Source: an uncultured Eubacteriales bacterium (GTDB lineage: Bacteria; Bacillota; Clostridia; Oscillospirales; Oscillospiraceae). From it: a stretch of 12,788 nt of DNA. The stretch is taken from NCBI GenBank assembly GCA_900544295.1, contig UQUO01000056.1, positions 1-12,788 of the forward strand, written 5' to 3'. The position numbers were made by a program, and so were the translations under genes. Shown here in pieces: positions 143 through 12,713 of this stretch (the first letter of the stretch is position 1; each line of letters begins with the position of its first letter). The notes under the pieces are model-generated. The model ran no database searches. It had not been told where the DNA came from and saw nothing but the letters and a program-made list of their open reading frames with translations.

Positions 143-343
143 TCAGCGTTTGCCGCTGATGCCGAGGATATAGTCCGTGCTCGTATGATACAGCGCGGCA
201 AGTTTAATGAGCACCTGGGTCGGGATGTCGTTCTCGCCGGTCTCATACTTTGAATAGCCTGTCTGCGACATTTGCAGGTACTTTGCCACCTGCGCCTGGG
301 TCATATCCGCGTCTTCGCGCAGGTCTCGCAGTCTGGGATACAT
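143..343 (-). CDS. Small XRE (Cro/C1-type) HTH transcriptional regulator
   Basis: A 66-residue DNA-binding protein that is almost entirely one HTH_XRE domain (about residues 5-61). It shows the family pattern LRDLREDADMTQAQVAKYL, the recognition-helix region SQTGYSKYETG and the closing helices PTQVLIKLAALYHTSTDYIL. There is no sensor or dimerisation extension, so it probably acts as a simple dimeric repressor. I chose ATG at 343 because a GAGGTGAGG Shine-Dalgarno stretch lies just upstream of it; the GTG at 352 would fall inside that site. It is divergent from the 54-residue protein gene at 434, and the gap holds two copies of a palindrome that it very probably binds. The family assignment is secure; the operator assignment is inference. 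Confidence 0.9.
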   Translation of the reverse strand: MYPRLRDLREDADMTQAQVAKYLQMSQTGYSKYETGENDIPTQVLIKLAALYHTSTDYILGISGKR

Positions 344-371
344 TCGCCTCACCTCGGGCTCAGTATTCCAT

Positions 372-601: not shown

Positions 602-635
602 AAAAGAAACCGGCCTTTGAGGGCCGGTTTCTTTT
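602..635. terminator. Bidirectional intrinsic terminator
   Basis: A perfect 14-bp stem (602-615 with 622-635) around a 6-base loop has an A-run on one side and a T-run on the other. It can therefore end both the plus-strand small-protein transcript (stop at 598) and the minus-strand lyase transcript (stop at 660). Confidence 0.9.
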
Positions 636-659: not shown

Positions 660-2108
660 TTAAAGGCTGTCGCCGAAGTCGGCGCGGAATTTGGCGACGA
701 GCTTCTCCTGCCAGTCGCTGGTCGGGGCGAGGCGGCCGAAGAAGAAACGAAGAGAGCTCGGTTCCTCTACCCAGCGCAGGCCGCCCACCAGTTCGCGGTT
801 CCCGAACAGCCATGTTATCCTGTCCACCGCGTAGAGCAGCTGGCTCATAGTGAACACGCGCCTCGGAACCGCCAGGCGCAGCAGCTCCACGTCCGCAATG
901 GGCTCCGTGCCGTCGGGCTCGCGCTGCTCGGAGAGCGTGCCGCGCTCCATGCCGCGGATGCCGCCCGCCAGGTACACCGCCGCGGCCAGCGAGCCCGCCG
1001 GGTACTCGTGGTCGTCGATGTGCGGCAGGAACTCCCGCGCGTTCAGGTGGCAGCCCAGGCCGCCCGCAGGCGTCACCACAGGCACGCCCCGCTTCTGCAG
1101 CTCCCGGCACATGAAATCTATGAAAATCGGCCCCTGGCTGATGACGTCCTCGTCCATCGTCTCCTCCAGGCCCACTGTGATGGCCTCCATCTCGCGCACG
1201 CTCATGCCGCCGTAGGTCAGGAAGCCCTCGAACATCGGCACCAGTTCACGCATCTGCTCGCATAGCTTCTGCTCCCGCATCGCGATGCCGCCGCCGCGCG
1301 CGAAGCCGAATTTGCGCGCCGAGAAGTAGATGATGTCGAACTCCTCCGCCACGGCGCGGGTTATCTCGCGGATGCTCATGTCCTTGCAGGCGGCCTCGCG
1401 CGTTTTGATGAAGTGGAGATTATCCTGCAGCAGGCTCGCGTCCAGGACGGTCATGATGCCGTGCTCACGGCAGATGGCGCAGGTCTCGCGCATGTTTTGC
1501 AGGCTCAGCGGCTGGCCGCCGATGAGGTTCGTGCCCGCCTCCACGCGCAGGAAGGGGATGTGCTCTGCGCCGACCTCGGCGATGAGCTTGCGGAGCTTGT
1601 CAAGGTCGAAGTTGCCCTTGAAGGGGCAATCGCTCGTCGTGGCGAGGCCCTCGTCTATGACGAGCTCCTCTACCCGGCCGCCGAGGCGCGTGATGTGCGC
1701 CTTCGTAGTCGTGAAGTGGAAGTTCATCGGCACGACGTCGCCGGGTTTCACGAAGGCCATGGCCAGGATGTTCTCGCAGGCGCGGCCCTGGTGCGCGGGG
1801 AGGAAAAACTTCGTGCCGAATATCTCGTGTACCTTGTTCTCCAGCCGCGTGAAGGACGCGCTGCCCGCGTAACTGTCGTCACATATGAGCATGGCGGCAG
1901 TCTGGCGGTCGCTCATCGCGTTGACGCCGGAATCCGTCAACATGTCAAGGAAAATATCCTCGTTCTTGAGCAGGAAGGTGTTGTTGCCCGCCTCTGCTAT
2001 GGCCTGGGCGCGGCGTTCAACGGGCTGGAGGTTCAGTTTCTGGACCATGCGCACCTTGTGCAGCTCGAGGGGGATGTCCATACCGGTGAAGAATTTGATG
2101 TTGGCCAT
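660..2108 (-). CDS. PLP-dependent beta-eliminating lyase (tryptophanase / tyrosine phenol-lyase family)
   Basis: A 482-residue cytosolic enzyme, near the family's usual 455-475. Tryptophanase (indole) and tyrosine phenol-lyase (phenol) split an aromatic amino acid into the ring compound, pyruvate and ammonia using PLP. Family landmarks: LTDSG (58-61), SYAGS with Tyr80, HQGR (106-109), GGQP (197-200), Asp223, and SARK with Lys266 as the expected PLP lysine. From memory of the two enzymes, selective positions match tyrosine phenol-lyase: FTTT (132-135) instead of the FDTT of tryptophanase, MERG with Arg389 instead of VEIG, and LRFF (453-456) instead of LRHF. Oddities: the usual Asp-x-x-Arg before the active lysine is DASL (Leu226 replaces Arg), and the residue after Lys266 is Phe, not Asp. 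GGAG (2118-2121) lies 9 bases before ATG. A tyrosine-specific T-box precedes it. An automated label would probably be tryptophanase (tnaA); I withhold the symbol because the substrate is uncertain. Confidence 0.9.
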   Translation of the reverse strand: MANIKFFTGMDIPLELHKVRMVQKLNLQPVERRAQAIAEAGNNTFLLKNEDIFLDMLTDSGVNAMSDRQTAAMLICDDSYAGSASFTRLENKVHEIFGTKFFLPAHQGRACENILAMAFVKPGDVVPMNFHFTTTKAHITRLGGRVEELVIDEGLATTSDCPFKGNFDLDKLRKLIAEVGAEHIPFLRVEAGTNLIGGQPLSLQNMRETCAICREHGIMTVLDASLLQDNLHFIKTREAACKDMSIREITRAVAEEFDIIYFSARKFGFARGGGIAMREQKLCEQMRELVPMFEGFLTYGGMSVREMEAITVGLEETMDEDVISQGPIFIDFMCRELQKRGVPVVTPAGGLGCHLNAREFLPHIDDHEYPAGSLAAAVYLAGGIRGMERGTLSEQREPDGTEPIADVELLRLAVPRRVFTMSQLLYAVDRITWLFGNRELVGGLRWVEEPSSLRFFFGRLAPTSDWQEKLVAKFRADFGDSL

Positions 2109-2173: not shown

Positions 2174-2213
2174 AAAAAAATACACGCCCTTCCTCCCTGA
2201 CAGAGGACGAGCG
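2174..2213 (-). terminator. T-box leader attenuator terminator
   Basis: On the minus strand CGCTCGTCCTC pairs with GAGGAAGGGCG (11 positions, one mismatch, one G-U) across a 7-base loop. TGTA and seven T residues (2180-2174) follow. It lies between the T-box core and the lyase start codon, as expected for transcriptional attenuation. Confidence 0.88.
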
Positions 2214-2474
2214 CCAAATCCCGTGTTACCACCTCAATTCACCGGAGCCTCACGGTCTCCGGCCTCTTCGGGTACGCCCGCAGCGCGGGATGTATACCCT
2301 ATCTCTGTAACGGGAGAAACCCGGCCCGGCCTACCGGCGAAAAATCGCTTTCGAGGGGCGGCTCTTGCGTGTATTCCCCGGCTCTCGCCTCGTGCCTTGC
2401 ACCGACCGGCACTTCTCTGCAGGCTCAAAATCCGGGTACTCTGCGCAGTCACAGCCTTTTGCTGTCTTTCAATT
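2174..2474 (-). promoter_or_regulatory. T-box riboswitch, tyrosine (UAC) specifier
   Basis: This is a complete T-box leader, read on the minus strand. Stem I (about 2456 down to 2360) has a base GGCU/AGCC and a specifier loop with AGAGUA facing GAAUACA, which is the canonical AGUA/GAA loop. The codon after GAA is UAC at 2373-2371 and is followed by A. The apical loop, closed by GTGCC/GGCAC, holds the GGUG motif. A stem III-like hairpin spans 2270-2299. The T-box core GAGGTGGTAACACGG (2235-2221) carries UGGU (2231-2228), which pairs with a tRNA 3' end of ACCA; discriminator A fits tRNA-Tyr and not the G of bacterial tRNA-Trp. CCGTG upstream can pair with CACGG of the core to form the antiterminator, in competition with the terminator at 2174-2213. 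Uncharged tRNA-Tyr should therefore switch the lyase gene on. Confidence 0.93.
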
Positions 2475-2480
2475 GTGTAC

Positions 2481-2508
2481 ATTATACCGCTCCGCTTTAA
2501 ATTGTCAA
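2481..2508 (-). promoter_or_regulatory. Consensus sigma-A promoter of the T-box/lyase unit
   Basis: On the minus strand a perfect TTGACA (2508-2503), a 16-bp spacer and a perfect TATAAT (2486-2481) predict a transcript start near 2474, immediately before the T-box stem I. Such a strong promoter fits control by attenuation rather than by initiation. The AT-rich stretch 2509-2665 between this and the pcrA promoter holds nothing else that I can identify. Confidence 0.88.
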
Positions 2509-6017: not shown

Positions 6018-8264
6018 TCACATCTCACGGGCCATTTGCAGCATCTTTGCCATCTGGGCCCTGGTCAGGCTGCCGGCGGGGGCAAGGCCCGAGTCGGAGC
6101 CGTCCACTATGCCGAGGGAAATGAGAGTCGCCGTCGGCGTCTGCGCCCAGGAGGCCACGGAGGCCGCGTCCGGGAAGCGCGAGAGCAGCGAGGCGTCCGC
6201 GTCGGTGTAGCTCACGCCCAGGGTCTTGAGCGCGCGGTAGAGGAAGGTGAAACCCTCCTGCCGCGTCAGGGTGTCCTGCGGGGCGAAGAGGCCCTCGCCC
6301 TTGCCCTCGGTGATGCCGTTGGCGTAGGCCCAGGCCACGGCCGAGGCGTAGTAGGCGCTGTCCGGCACGTCCGCGAAGCCCGCGCCCTCGCTCACGGAGG
6401 GGCTGCCCGCCGCACGGTAGAGCATCAGCACAAAGTCGCAGCGCTTCATCGACAGGTCCGGCCCGAACTGCGTCTCCGTGATGCCGGAGACGATGCCATC
6501 CTTGTAGAGCGCCTTGACGTAGCTCTCGGCCCAGTGGCCGATGATGTCCGTGAACTCCTTCTCGATCTCAATTTCGATCTCCGACGTTATGCCGGCGGCG
6601 TTCACGAGAAGTTTGCCCTTCGTCCCCGGCGTGCCGGTGGCGGTGAAGAGGCCGTCCTTCGTCACGGTGCCTATACTGCCCTCGACAGAGTAGGTGACGG
6701 AGCCGTCATCCATGTACACGTCGCGCAGGAGGTACTTGGCGGCGACCTCGACACTCAGGGTCTCGCCCTGCTCAAGGACGGCGCTCGTGATGGCCGTGCC
6801 GCTCTCGGCGTCCGTGACGCTCAGGCTGTCGGCCTTCGTCACGACGTGCAGGGTGCCGCTGCCGGAGGCCGTGCCGGAGCTGAGGGTCAGCTTATCCGTC
6901 CCCGCCGAGGCAGGGGCGGTGTAGACTCCGCCGCTCACGCTGCCGCGGGAGGCCGAGGCCGTGACCGACGAGGGCGTTTCCACGCTGCGCATGGCGCTGT
7001 CCGTCGCGGCGTAACCCAGCGTGAGGCTGCTGCCAGCGAGGACATAGGCCCCGTCCTGCGTGAGGTAGAGGTTCCGCGCGCTGCCCGAGGGGGCCGTGTC
7101 GGTCACGAAGAGGATGTAGGAGCAGACGGAGCGCAGGGAGCCGTCCGAGGGCTTGTTCAAAATAGTGAAGCCCTCCTTGCCCGGCATGCGCAGGGCAAGG
7201 GTCGAGGAACCGCCGCCGTCCATGTTCACGACGGTGGTGCAGCCCATGGAGAGCATATCCTCCGCCAGCTCGCGCAGGGTGCTGCCCTTCGAGGCCGTGG
7301 TGCGCCCGTCCATGACGAGGTAGACCACCGTCCCGTCGCTCTTGATGCCGATGGCGGTGCGGGGGTTAGTAGCGGTGATGGAGCTGTCCCACCGGTCCTC
7401 GTCGAAGACCTGTCCGTCCTTTGCGATGATGTTGCCGCTGCCGGAGACCCATTCCTGGAGAGCCAGCTGGCTGTCGGAGCACTCCGTCGAGAGCGTCACG
7501 CGGTCGCCTTTCGAGAACTTCGCCAGCGCGGCTTCCTGCCCCGCCTTGTCCGAGGCCGTGAGGATGAGGTAGCCCTCCCCTATCGGCACGCTGGTCTCGC
7601 CCGTTATGATGTCGGCGACCTCCAGCTCCACCGTGCCGTCGAGCGTTATCTCACCCGAGAGTACCTTGAAACGCACGTACCAGCCGGAGCTGGAGGTGCG
7701 GGTCGAAACCGTGGAGAAATACTCGCTGTACAGGTACACGCCGCTGTCGGAGCGGGTCTTGTTCAGGTGCGTCGTCGTGACGGAGCCGCCGGAGGTCTGG
7801 TTTTCGAGAGTTATGTAAACCTCGGGCTTGTAGCTGGCGTAGGCTCTGCCGTTCGTGAATCCTATGGCGCTGTTGCCCTCGGGCGAGGACTTGTAGACGC
7901 CGTCCTCAACGACCATGCCGCAGGGGATGCGAGTCTCCCAGTAGCCGAAGTCGGCGTTTATCGCCCCAACGACGTTGTAGCCCAGGCCCTCGGCGTAGTC
8001 TATCATCTGCGTGATGGTCATGCCGCCGTAGATGGTATCGCAGGCGAGGACTATGGGGTAGACGGAGCTGCCGGGCGCGTTTTCGACTACGAAGGTCTCG
8101 TTCCGGCTGCCTGTGGAGCCGTAGGAGAAGGCGTTCTCGTAGACGAAGCCGGACGCCAGGTTCCAGCGGTTGGTGTAGACGGCCTCGCCGGTGCCGGCGC
8201 CGTAGGCGAGGGCGCAGGTTGTGAGCATGAGCGCGGCGAGGATGAGGCAGAGCAGTTTCTTCAT
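6018..8264 (-). CDS. Secreted phosphodiester glycosidase (NAGPA-type) with three SLH domains
   Basis: A 748-residue exported, wall-attached protein. A signal peptide covers residues 1-20 (MKKLLCLILAALMLTTCALA). The phosphodiester glycosidase/NAGPA (DUF2233-type) domain spans about 95-390 and shows NADFG (103-107), AIGIKSDGTVVYLVMDGR (304-321) and the signature NMDGGGSS (347-354). Members of this family hydrolyse sugar-1-phosphodiester bonds, such as uncovering of GlcNAc-phosphodiesters. Residues 390-570 look like Ser/Thr-rich bacterial Ig-like folds. Three SLH domains follow (571-620, 629-680, 697-745), each with the F/Y-x-D...W...GI...F.P...R core, and they anchor the protein to secondary wall polymer. 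ATG 8264 was chosen because AAAGGAAG lies just upstream and the signal peptide starts there; extension to 8312 adds an unlikely basic leader. It is the last gene of a five-gene operon, 14 bases after the four-TM gene. Substrate unknown; a wall or capsule glycan phosphodiester is inferred. Confidence 0.92.
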   Translation of the reverse strand: MKKLLCLILAALMLTTCALAYGAGTGEAVYTNRWNLASGFVYENAFSYGSTGSRNETFVVENAPGSSVYPIVLACDTIYGGMTITQMIDYAEGLGYNVVGAINADFGYWETRIPCGMVVEDGVYKSSPEGNSAIGFTNGRAYASYKPEVYITLENQTSGGSVTTTHLNKTRSDSGVYLYSEYFSTVSTRTSSSGWYVRFKVLSGEITLDGTVELEVADIITGETSVPIGEGYLILTASDKAGQEAALAKFSKGDRVTLSTECSDSQLALQEWVSGSGNIIAKDGQVFDEDRWDSSITATNPRTAIGIKSDGTVVYLVMDGRTTASKGSTLRELAEDMLSMGCTTVVNMDGGGSSTLALRMPGKEGFTILNKPSDGSLRSVCSYILFVTDTAPSGSARNLYLTQDGAYVLAGSSLTLGYAATDSAMRSVETPSSVTASASRGSVSGGVYTAPASAGTDKLTLSSGTASGSGTLHVVTKADSLSVTDAESGTAITSAVLEQGETLSVEVAAKYLLRDVYMDDGSVTYSVEGSIGTVTKDGLFTATGTPGTKGKLLVNAAGITSEIEIEIEKEFTDIIGHWAESYVKALYKDGIVSGITETQFGPDLSMKRCDFVLMLYRAAGSPSVSEGAGFADVPDSAYYASAVAWAYANGITEGKGEGLFAPQDTLTRQEGFTFLYRALKTLGVSYTDADASLLSRFPDAASVASWAQTPTATLISLGIVDGSDSGLAPAGSLTRAQMAKMLQMAREM

Positions 8265-8278
8265 GGGTACTTCCTTTC

Positions 8279-8605
8279 TCAGACGTGGCCGAAGAGGATG
8301 AGGCCGAGGCAATAGCTGAGGACGTTAGCGGCGAGCGTGAGCCAGAAGAGCTTCTTCGAGCGGCCACAGGCGTAGGCGTAGACGGCGTATTCGGCGGCGA
8401 CGACGGCGGCCTCCAGCGGGTAGACAGCCCAGGCGGCCGCGCCGCCGGGCAGAAGGACTAGGATGAGGTTCAGCGTGAGGTTCGTGGCGGCGTTCGCGGC
8501 GGCGCAGAGGGCGAGGAAGGCCGCGTCCCGCCGGTAGGTCAGAGCGAGGAAGGCCGTCTCGACCGCGAGGGTCAAAAGCGCCGCCAGGAGCAGCTCAAGG
8601 TTCAT
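8279..8605 (-). CDS. Small four-TM membrane protein
   Basis: A 108-residue hydrophobic protein with four predicted membrane helices (about 3-22, 29-53, 57-79, 86-106) and short basic turns (TYRRD, GRSKK). Polar residues lie inside the helices: Glu16, Asn38, Asn42, Asn46, Glu65, Glu72 and Asn94. This is unusual for a mere structural protein and suggests ion or substrate passage or helix packing. It overlaps the preceding 67-residue gene by ATGA, so translation is coupled, and the glycosidase gene follows after 14 bases. I do not recognise a named family with confidence. It is probably a component of a membrane complex made with its operon partners. Confidence 0.82.
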   Translation of the reverse strand: MNLELLLAALLTLAVETAFLALTYRRDAAFLALCAAANAATNLTLNLILVLLPGGAAAWAVYPLEAAVVAAEYAVYAYACGRSKKLFWLTLAANVLSYCLGLILFGHV

Positions 8606-12660: not shown

Positions 12661-12680
12661 CTCCCTGCATCCTCGCCCGC

Positions 12681-12713
12681 AAAGGGGGAACCCCCGGCGA
12701 GGGTTCCCCCTTT
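12681..12713. repeat. 33-bp hairpin repeat, right (inverted) copy
   Basis: The exact reverse complement of 1-33: 13-bp stem (12681-12693 with 12701-12713) and a 7-base loop. The two copies face each other across the whole window. Confidence 0.8.

Follow-up and report, generated by a model that had tools for sequence, protein, structure and literature searches.

A predicted tyrosine-specific T-box leader ahead of a TPL-like lyase gene in an uncultured Eubacteriales bacterium and its relatives, with a possible role in tyrosine re-synthesis from phenol

The stretch of DNA analysed here (the window; 12,788 nucleotides of contig UQUO01000056.1, from an uncultured Eubacteriales bacterium) carries on its minus strand a T-box leader and, starting 91 nt past the T-box match, the open reading frame of a PLP-dependent beta-eliminating lyase (Table 1). 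The leader matched the Rfam model RF00230 over its full length (model positions 1-219) with 103.1 bits and an E value of 2.4e-22 in cmscan, and it was the sole Rfam match in the window above the gathering score of 93 bits. It is preceded by a promoter that agrees with the consensus TTGACA-16-TATAAT at 12 of 12 hexamer positions. The specifier loop reads AGUA ... GAA-UAC-AC, and the covariance match places the tyrosine codon UAC, not another codon, at the specifier. tRNA-Tyr has the discriminator base A73 and hence an ACCA 3' end, to which the UGGU of the bulge is complementary. The antiterminator and the terminator are mutually exclusive, having the CUCGUCCUC arm in common before the T-run, and the terminator stem together with the T-run overlaps the 3' arm of the antiterminator. 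An earlier note on this DNA had described a full T-box leader with a UAC specifier, UGGU in the core, an attenuator terminator and a perfect-consensus promoter, and all of these elements were recovered here. The window leader is predicted to be a class I, transcription-attenuating, tyrosine-specific T-box that would respond to its tRNA.

Table 1. Positions of the leader elements, the lyase gene and the hairpin behind it in the window
Feature	Position	Strand	Basis or remark
-35 hexamer TTGACA	2503..2508	-	also upstream of the T-box in L001, L003, L033 and G045-G048
-10 hexamer TATAAT	2481..2486	-	16-nt spacer to the -35 hexamer
T-box leader, full-length RF00230	2200..2461	-	cmscan
Specifier codon UAC (Tyr)	2371..2373	-	covariance match, direct reading and leader comparison
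Antiterminator bulge UGGU	2228..2231	-	fits ACCA 3' end
Intrinsic terminator stem-loop	2184..2214	-	region folds at -19.2 kcal/mol; 5' arm common with the antiterminator
Terminator T-run	2174..2180	-	direct reading
482-aa PLP-dependent beta-eliminating lyase, TPL-like clade	660..2108	-	family scores and residues
Hairpin with short T-tail past the lyase stop	602..635	-	stretch folds at -25.3 kcal/mol

The terminator of the leader was missing from a simple pattern scan for terminators in the window because its T-run begins more than 2 bases past the stem. When the antiterminator stretch was folded alone, it was no better than shuffles, as expected for a bulged structure in competition with the terminator. 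Since the lyase is followed by a strong hairpin that ends in a short T-tail (itself absent from the simple pattern scan), the transcription unit is most likely monocistronic, with the leader controlling one gene.

Several other features were seen in the window. A GC-rich palindromic sequence forms a 40-nt perfect inverted repeat near both ends (1-40 and 12674-12713), possibly a dispersed repeat at which the assembly stopped. A 69-aa open reading frame (143-352, minus strand) resembles by eye a Cro/C1-type helix-turn-helix regulator; upstream of it, within 372-411, lies a 12-bp inverted repeat, AACCTGAAACAG/CTGTTTCAGGTT, of operator-like appearance, and a small divergent open reading frame (434-598) is found nearby. 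A protein encoded farther along (6018-8312, minus strand) combines a phosphodiester glycosidase (NAGPA) domain with three S-layer homology stretches.

The amino acid to which the leader responds can be judged by comparison with other T-boxes. In seven genomes of close relatives, 55 T-box matches were found, and all 37 T-boxes of the six Scatomorpha genomes among the seven were read. Within this genus, the tryptophan leaders combine UGG with UGGC (5/5), the cysteine (5/5) and threonine (5/5) leaders carry UGGA, and U follows UGG in the valine (5/5), methionine (5/5) and phenylalanine (6/6) leaders; this tally leaves out one orphan leader, which lies at a contig end. The base after UGG matches the discriminator bases of the cognate tRNAs. 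The TrpB2-like gene behind the UGG leader was identified by family match, and the genes behind the other T-boxes, the lyase excepted, were assigned by eye from the N-terminal part of each translation: ValRS (GUC), a methionine-type ABC transporter (AUG), PheRS (UUC), CysRS and CysE (UGC) and ThrRS (ACC). The CysE label of L090 derives from its UGC leader alone, the downstream open reading frame shown not being CysE, and the codons of the L046 and L049 (ValRS) and L054 (CysRS) leaders were read by eye in place of the automatic pick. All 17 leaders before the lyase, that is, 5 of the 37 Scatomorpha T-boxes and 12 others including that of the window, have UAC with UGGU. Because the base after UGG tracks the amino acid, and because UAC and UGGU occur together in 17 of 17 lyase leaders, the tyrosine assignment of the lyase leader is firm as a reading of sequence. 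A tryptophan T-box reading of the window leader was ruled out, as the tryptophan leaders of the genus have UGG and UGGC.

Furthermore, across nine Scatomorpha-type leaders, 15 pairs out of the 89 predicted showed two-sided changes that keep the pair, and Stem I holds 7 of these 15; the structure, taken from RNAalifold, also includes long-range pairs beyond the T-box model, and the 5' end of the G005 row is misaligned. A search with aragorn in the loci examined reported one tRNA-Trp and no tRNA-Tyr gene. A second tyrosine T-box in G002 (L057/L194, on G002:C124) lies at a contig edge and may reflect strain mixture in the assembly.

The lyase itself was compared with family models and at individual residues. 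It scored 573.2 bits against NF009709 (cut-off 285), a broad NCBIfam subfamily named 'tryptophanase' that classical TPLs also pass. Against the TPL equivalog TIGR02618, it scored 433.8 bits, under the cut-off of 720.7, and against the tryptophanase models TIGR02617 and NF053783 it reached 324.2 and 384.4 bits, missing both cut-offs (825.8 and 750). A fold comparison gave high scores to TPL and tryptophanase chains alike and no separation. Residues were counted over 72 distinct members of the clade, four partial proteins (L036, L089, L203 and L040) having been dropped. The catalytic frame (Y71, D214, K257 and R404) is present in 72 of 72. In the window protein, the TPL substrate-site set T124, M288, M379, R381 and F448 is kept at four of five positions, position 288 being F; in the clade, T124, R381 and F448 are kept in 72/72 and M379 in 71/72. 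These four positions (124, 379, 381 and 448) distinguish TPL from tryptophan indole-lyase, according to excerpts of PMC5805759. Asp137, Ile396 and His463 of tryptophanase (E. coli numbering) are replaced by T, R and F in 72 of 72, and four departures from TPL, R217L, K256R, M288F and A386E, are likewise invariant (72/72).

The cut-offs of TIGR02617 and NF053783 and these residues ruled out a tryptophanase identity. The label 'tryptophanase-family' of the earlier note therefore stands for the broad subfamily NF009709 and falls at the substrate site, where the residues are TPL-like. The enzyme appears to be nearer TPL than tryptophanase at the substrate site and belongs to a TPL-like clade. Given the missed TPL cut-off and the invariant changes, its chemistry may differ from that of TPL.

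The combination of tyrosine T-box and lyase recurs. In the genus of Candidatus Scatomorpha merdipullorum (G003), the lyase was found in 10 of 13 genomes, the other three showing no match, and a survey of the kind proposed in the earlier note found the UAC/UGGU leader in all nine genomes with readable upstream DNA, the lyase copy of the tenth carrier (G006) having no start. The nearest relative, L001, is 96% identical to the window lyase over residues 1-464. In the wider family, a homologue at E <= 1e-100 was found in 41 of 400 genomes. Three of these are 41% identical and all score as classical TPL, with no T-box in the DNA stretches around them; eight belong to the Scatomorpha genus, and 30 remain. 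A T-box lies within 700 nt upstream in 7 of the 30, in each case with UAC and UGGU, and 23 are without one. No T-box was found on rescan at E up to 0.1 in L005, L012, L025, L026, L029, L041 and L042, and loci of other phyla showed none at the gathering threshold, a weak negative as this threshold also misses the Scatomorpha T-boxes of L001, L002, L003 and L033.

Ten leaders that were compared fall into three groups, with 62-81% identity within groups and 47-63% between them, and in a FastTree tree, read without its support values, the groups occupy branches apart from one another. These three leader groups and separated branches suggest that the tyrosine T-box was recruited to the lyase more than once; loss or gene transfer may account for the pattern as well.

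The gene content of the genus bears on the role of the enzyme. A TyrA domain (PF02153) above the cut-off was found in none of the 13 Scatomorpha genomes, with one match under the cut-off in G044. Chorismate synthase was found in one of the 13 (G044 again, itself without a lyase match), and prephenate dehydratase in none of the six Scatomorpha genomes examined. Missing assembly is an unlikely cause of the gap in TyrA and chorismate synthase, since TyrRS was detected in 12 of 13 (missing in G044) and the TrpB2-like gene in 13 of 13, in 11 of them above the cut-off. In the window's own genome, TyrA is presumably absent too, to judge from its relatives, of which L001 is the nearest.

A T-box with UGG and UGGC precedes the TrpB2-like gene in five (G001, G002, G003, G005 and G006) of the six genomes, out of 13 in the genus, that were searched for T-boxes, the G004 copy being partial. 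These tryptophan T-boxes (L048, L050, L061, L066 and L067) stand on TrpB2-like genes in genomes in which chorismate synthase was not found. The TrpB2-like genes under tryptophan T-boxes probably serve indole salvage. G005 also has, at L106:4309-5943 (plus strand), a protein closely related to the Butyricicoccus tryptophanase of known structure, 8sl7, and may for this reason both produce and consume indole.

Outside the genus, the association with TyrA is partial. TyrA was found in 24 of the 30 other family carriers, and it was missing in 4 of the 7 with a T-box versus 2 of the 23 without (Fisher p = 0.016, with phylogeny ignored). T-box lyase and TyrA are both present in G060, G113 and G407; in G407, the T-box lyase is divergent from an adjoining operon with DAHP synthase, TyrA and chorismate synthase. 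G007 has TyrA and a lyase without a T-box. Among 43 genomes of relatives (three of them the sources of the 37-39% identical L039-L041), 32 have TyrA. As these 32 have TyrA and 23 of the 30 carriers show no T-box, the lyase family, taken over all its members, is no simple replacement for TyrA, nor is it tied to TyrA loss in general. At tyrA itself, no T-box was found in the G007 stretch L074, and the 14-kb G407 stretch showed none save at the lyase; none came up either when 10 tyrA stretches were scanned for the pattern, by a method insensitive enough to pass over the known T-box in L211.

In T-box regulation, the uncharged tRNA holds the antiterminator and RNA polymerase passes, whereas the charged tRNA permits the terminator to form. 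In the present case, uncharged tRNA-Tyr would pair with UAC and UGGU and stabilise the antiterminator, and tyrosine starvation would lead to readthrough into the monocistronic TPL-like gene. The earlier note had pointed to a paradox, a degradative-looking lyase family induced on starvation, and this paradox holds and recurs in other genomes. A lyase induced by starvation should increase the tyrosine level rather than reduce it. As the substrate site is of the phenol type, the reaction would probably be the synthetic one, from phenol, pyruvate and ammonia to tyrosine, or a beta-replacement with a serine-like donor to the same product. The phenol could come from other bacteria of the gut, and such salvage would replace or supplement a missing shikimate/TyrA route, in parallel with the TrpB2-like enzyme that, under a tryptophan T-box, would turn indole into tryptophan. 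Among the options that the earlier note had listed, synthesis or salvage is favoured by the TPL-type residues, by the lack of TyrA over the cut-off in the genus and by the tryptophan T-box on a gene of the indole-salvage type, the activity and its direction being putative.

That the tyrosine T-box induces a TPL-like enzyme used for tyrosine re-synthesis from phenol, with the tRNA response, the activity, its direction and the phenol source all as proposed, is considered somewhat more probable than not. The broader proposition has about an even chance of being right: that several anaerobic gut lineages, some without a detected end of the shikimate route, each put a tyrosine T-box on a TPL-like anabolic tyrosine synthase that would use the phenol of their neighbours, while a TrpB2-type enzyme would recover tryptophan from indole.

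Other readings of the locus deserve consideration. The enzyme could act on another aromatic or donor (catechol, a substituted phenol, cysteine or serine), the T-box then marking a wider tyrosine-linked role and not phenol salvage. The invariant L217, R256, F288 and E386, unlike TPL in all 72 distinct members, and the score under the TPL equivalog cut-off are in keeping with this proposal; however, T124, R381 and F448, which distinguish TPL from tryptophan indole-lyase, are invariant, and a tyrosine-specific leader accompanies the enzyme in each of three leader groups. A different substrate is considered unlikely. Less probable still is that the enzyme degrades tyrosine and that its T-box control is non-optimal or has been misread. 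Characterised TPLs do yield phenol from tyrosine in gut bacteria, as stated in excerpts of PMC11259132, and among the genomes of relatives TyrA is present in 32 of one set of 43 and in 24 of the 30 other carriers. Breaking down scarce tyrosine would nevertheless be harmful, yet in a genus where TyrA went undetected the leader is present in all nine genomes that could be read, and it recurs elsewhere; moreover, the usual layout of terminator and antiterminator implies that uncharged tRNA should turn expression on.

That the T-box is a decayed remnant, or that it responds to some other tRNA, is very improbable. The Rfam score of the window leader is only 10 bits above the gathering score, with relatives under it. 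Against this stand UAC with UGGU in 17 of 17 leaders, the different base after UGG in the tryptophan, cysteine and threonine leaders of the genus, and the pair-keeping changes in 15 of 89 pairs across nine leaders, of which Stem I has 7. The favoured reading is that tyrosine is re-made from phenol.

A tyrosine-specific T-box leader is known for B. subtilis tyrS. The window leader has in common with such leaders the class I transcription-attenuation anatomy, UAC and UGGU, but it controls a TPL-like lyase, not a synthetase, a biosynthesis gene or a transporter. Compared to TPL (TIGR02618; PDB 2ez1, 9j3u and 1c7g), the window lyase is about 40% identical to the C. freundii enzyme, lies under the equivalog cut-off and carries R217L, K256R, M288F and A386E, and the three classical TPL genes are without a T-box in the stretches scanned. 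Compared to tryptophanase or tryptophan indole-lyase (TIGR02617, NF053783), it has T, R and F in place of Asp, Ile and His and misses both cut-offs. Excerpts of PMC11085991 describe gut bifidobacteria that salvage indole to tryptophan through TrpB; the use of microbial aromatic waste for an amino acid is common to both cases, whereas here phenol and tyrosine take the place of indole and tryptophan, and the gene is under a T-box.

The synthetic direction has precedent in biocatalysis, in which TPL makes tyrosine derivatives with pyruvate and ammonia (excerpts of PMC7431475). Excerpts of PMC11259132 describe phenol as a uremic toxin and as a product of gut bacteria that bear TPL; when mice were fed a diet rich in tyrosine, its level reached 1.92 nmol/mg faeces. 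In the literature searched, by titles and the starts of abstracts, no natural tyrosine-making by the TPL family was found, nor any T-box control of TPL or tryptophanase, which the 2008 T-box survey might mention. The excerpts of PMC7461572 and PMC1262725 link the T-box to no such lyase, and the text of the TBDB paper, as distinct from the database, does not contain 'lyase' or 'tryptophanase'.

If this account is correct, it would have several consequences. First, many proteins named 'tryptophanase' would need re-annotation; protein names are borne by 12 among the 120 listed relatives, and all 12 are 'tryptophanase'. Second, predictions of tyrosine auxotrophy would change for gut bacteria without TyrA. 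Third, some gut bacteria would consume phenol rather than make it.
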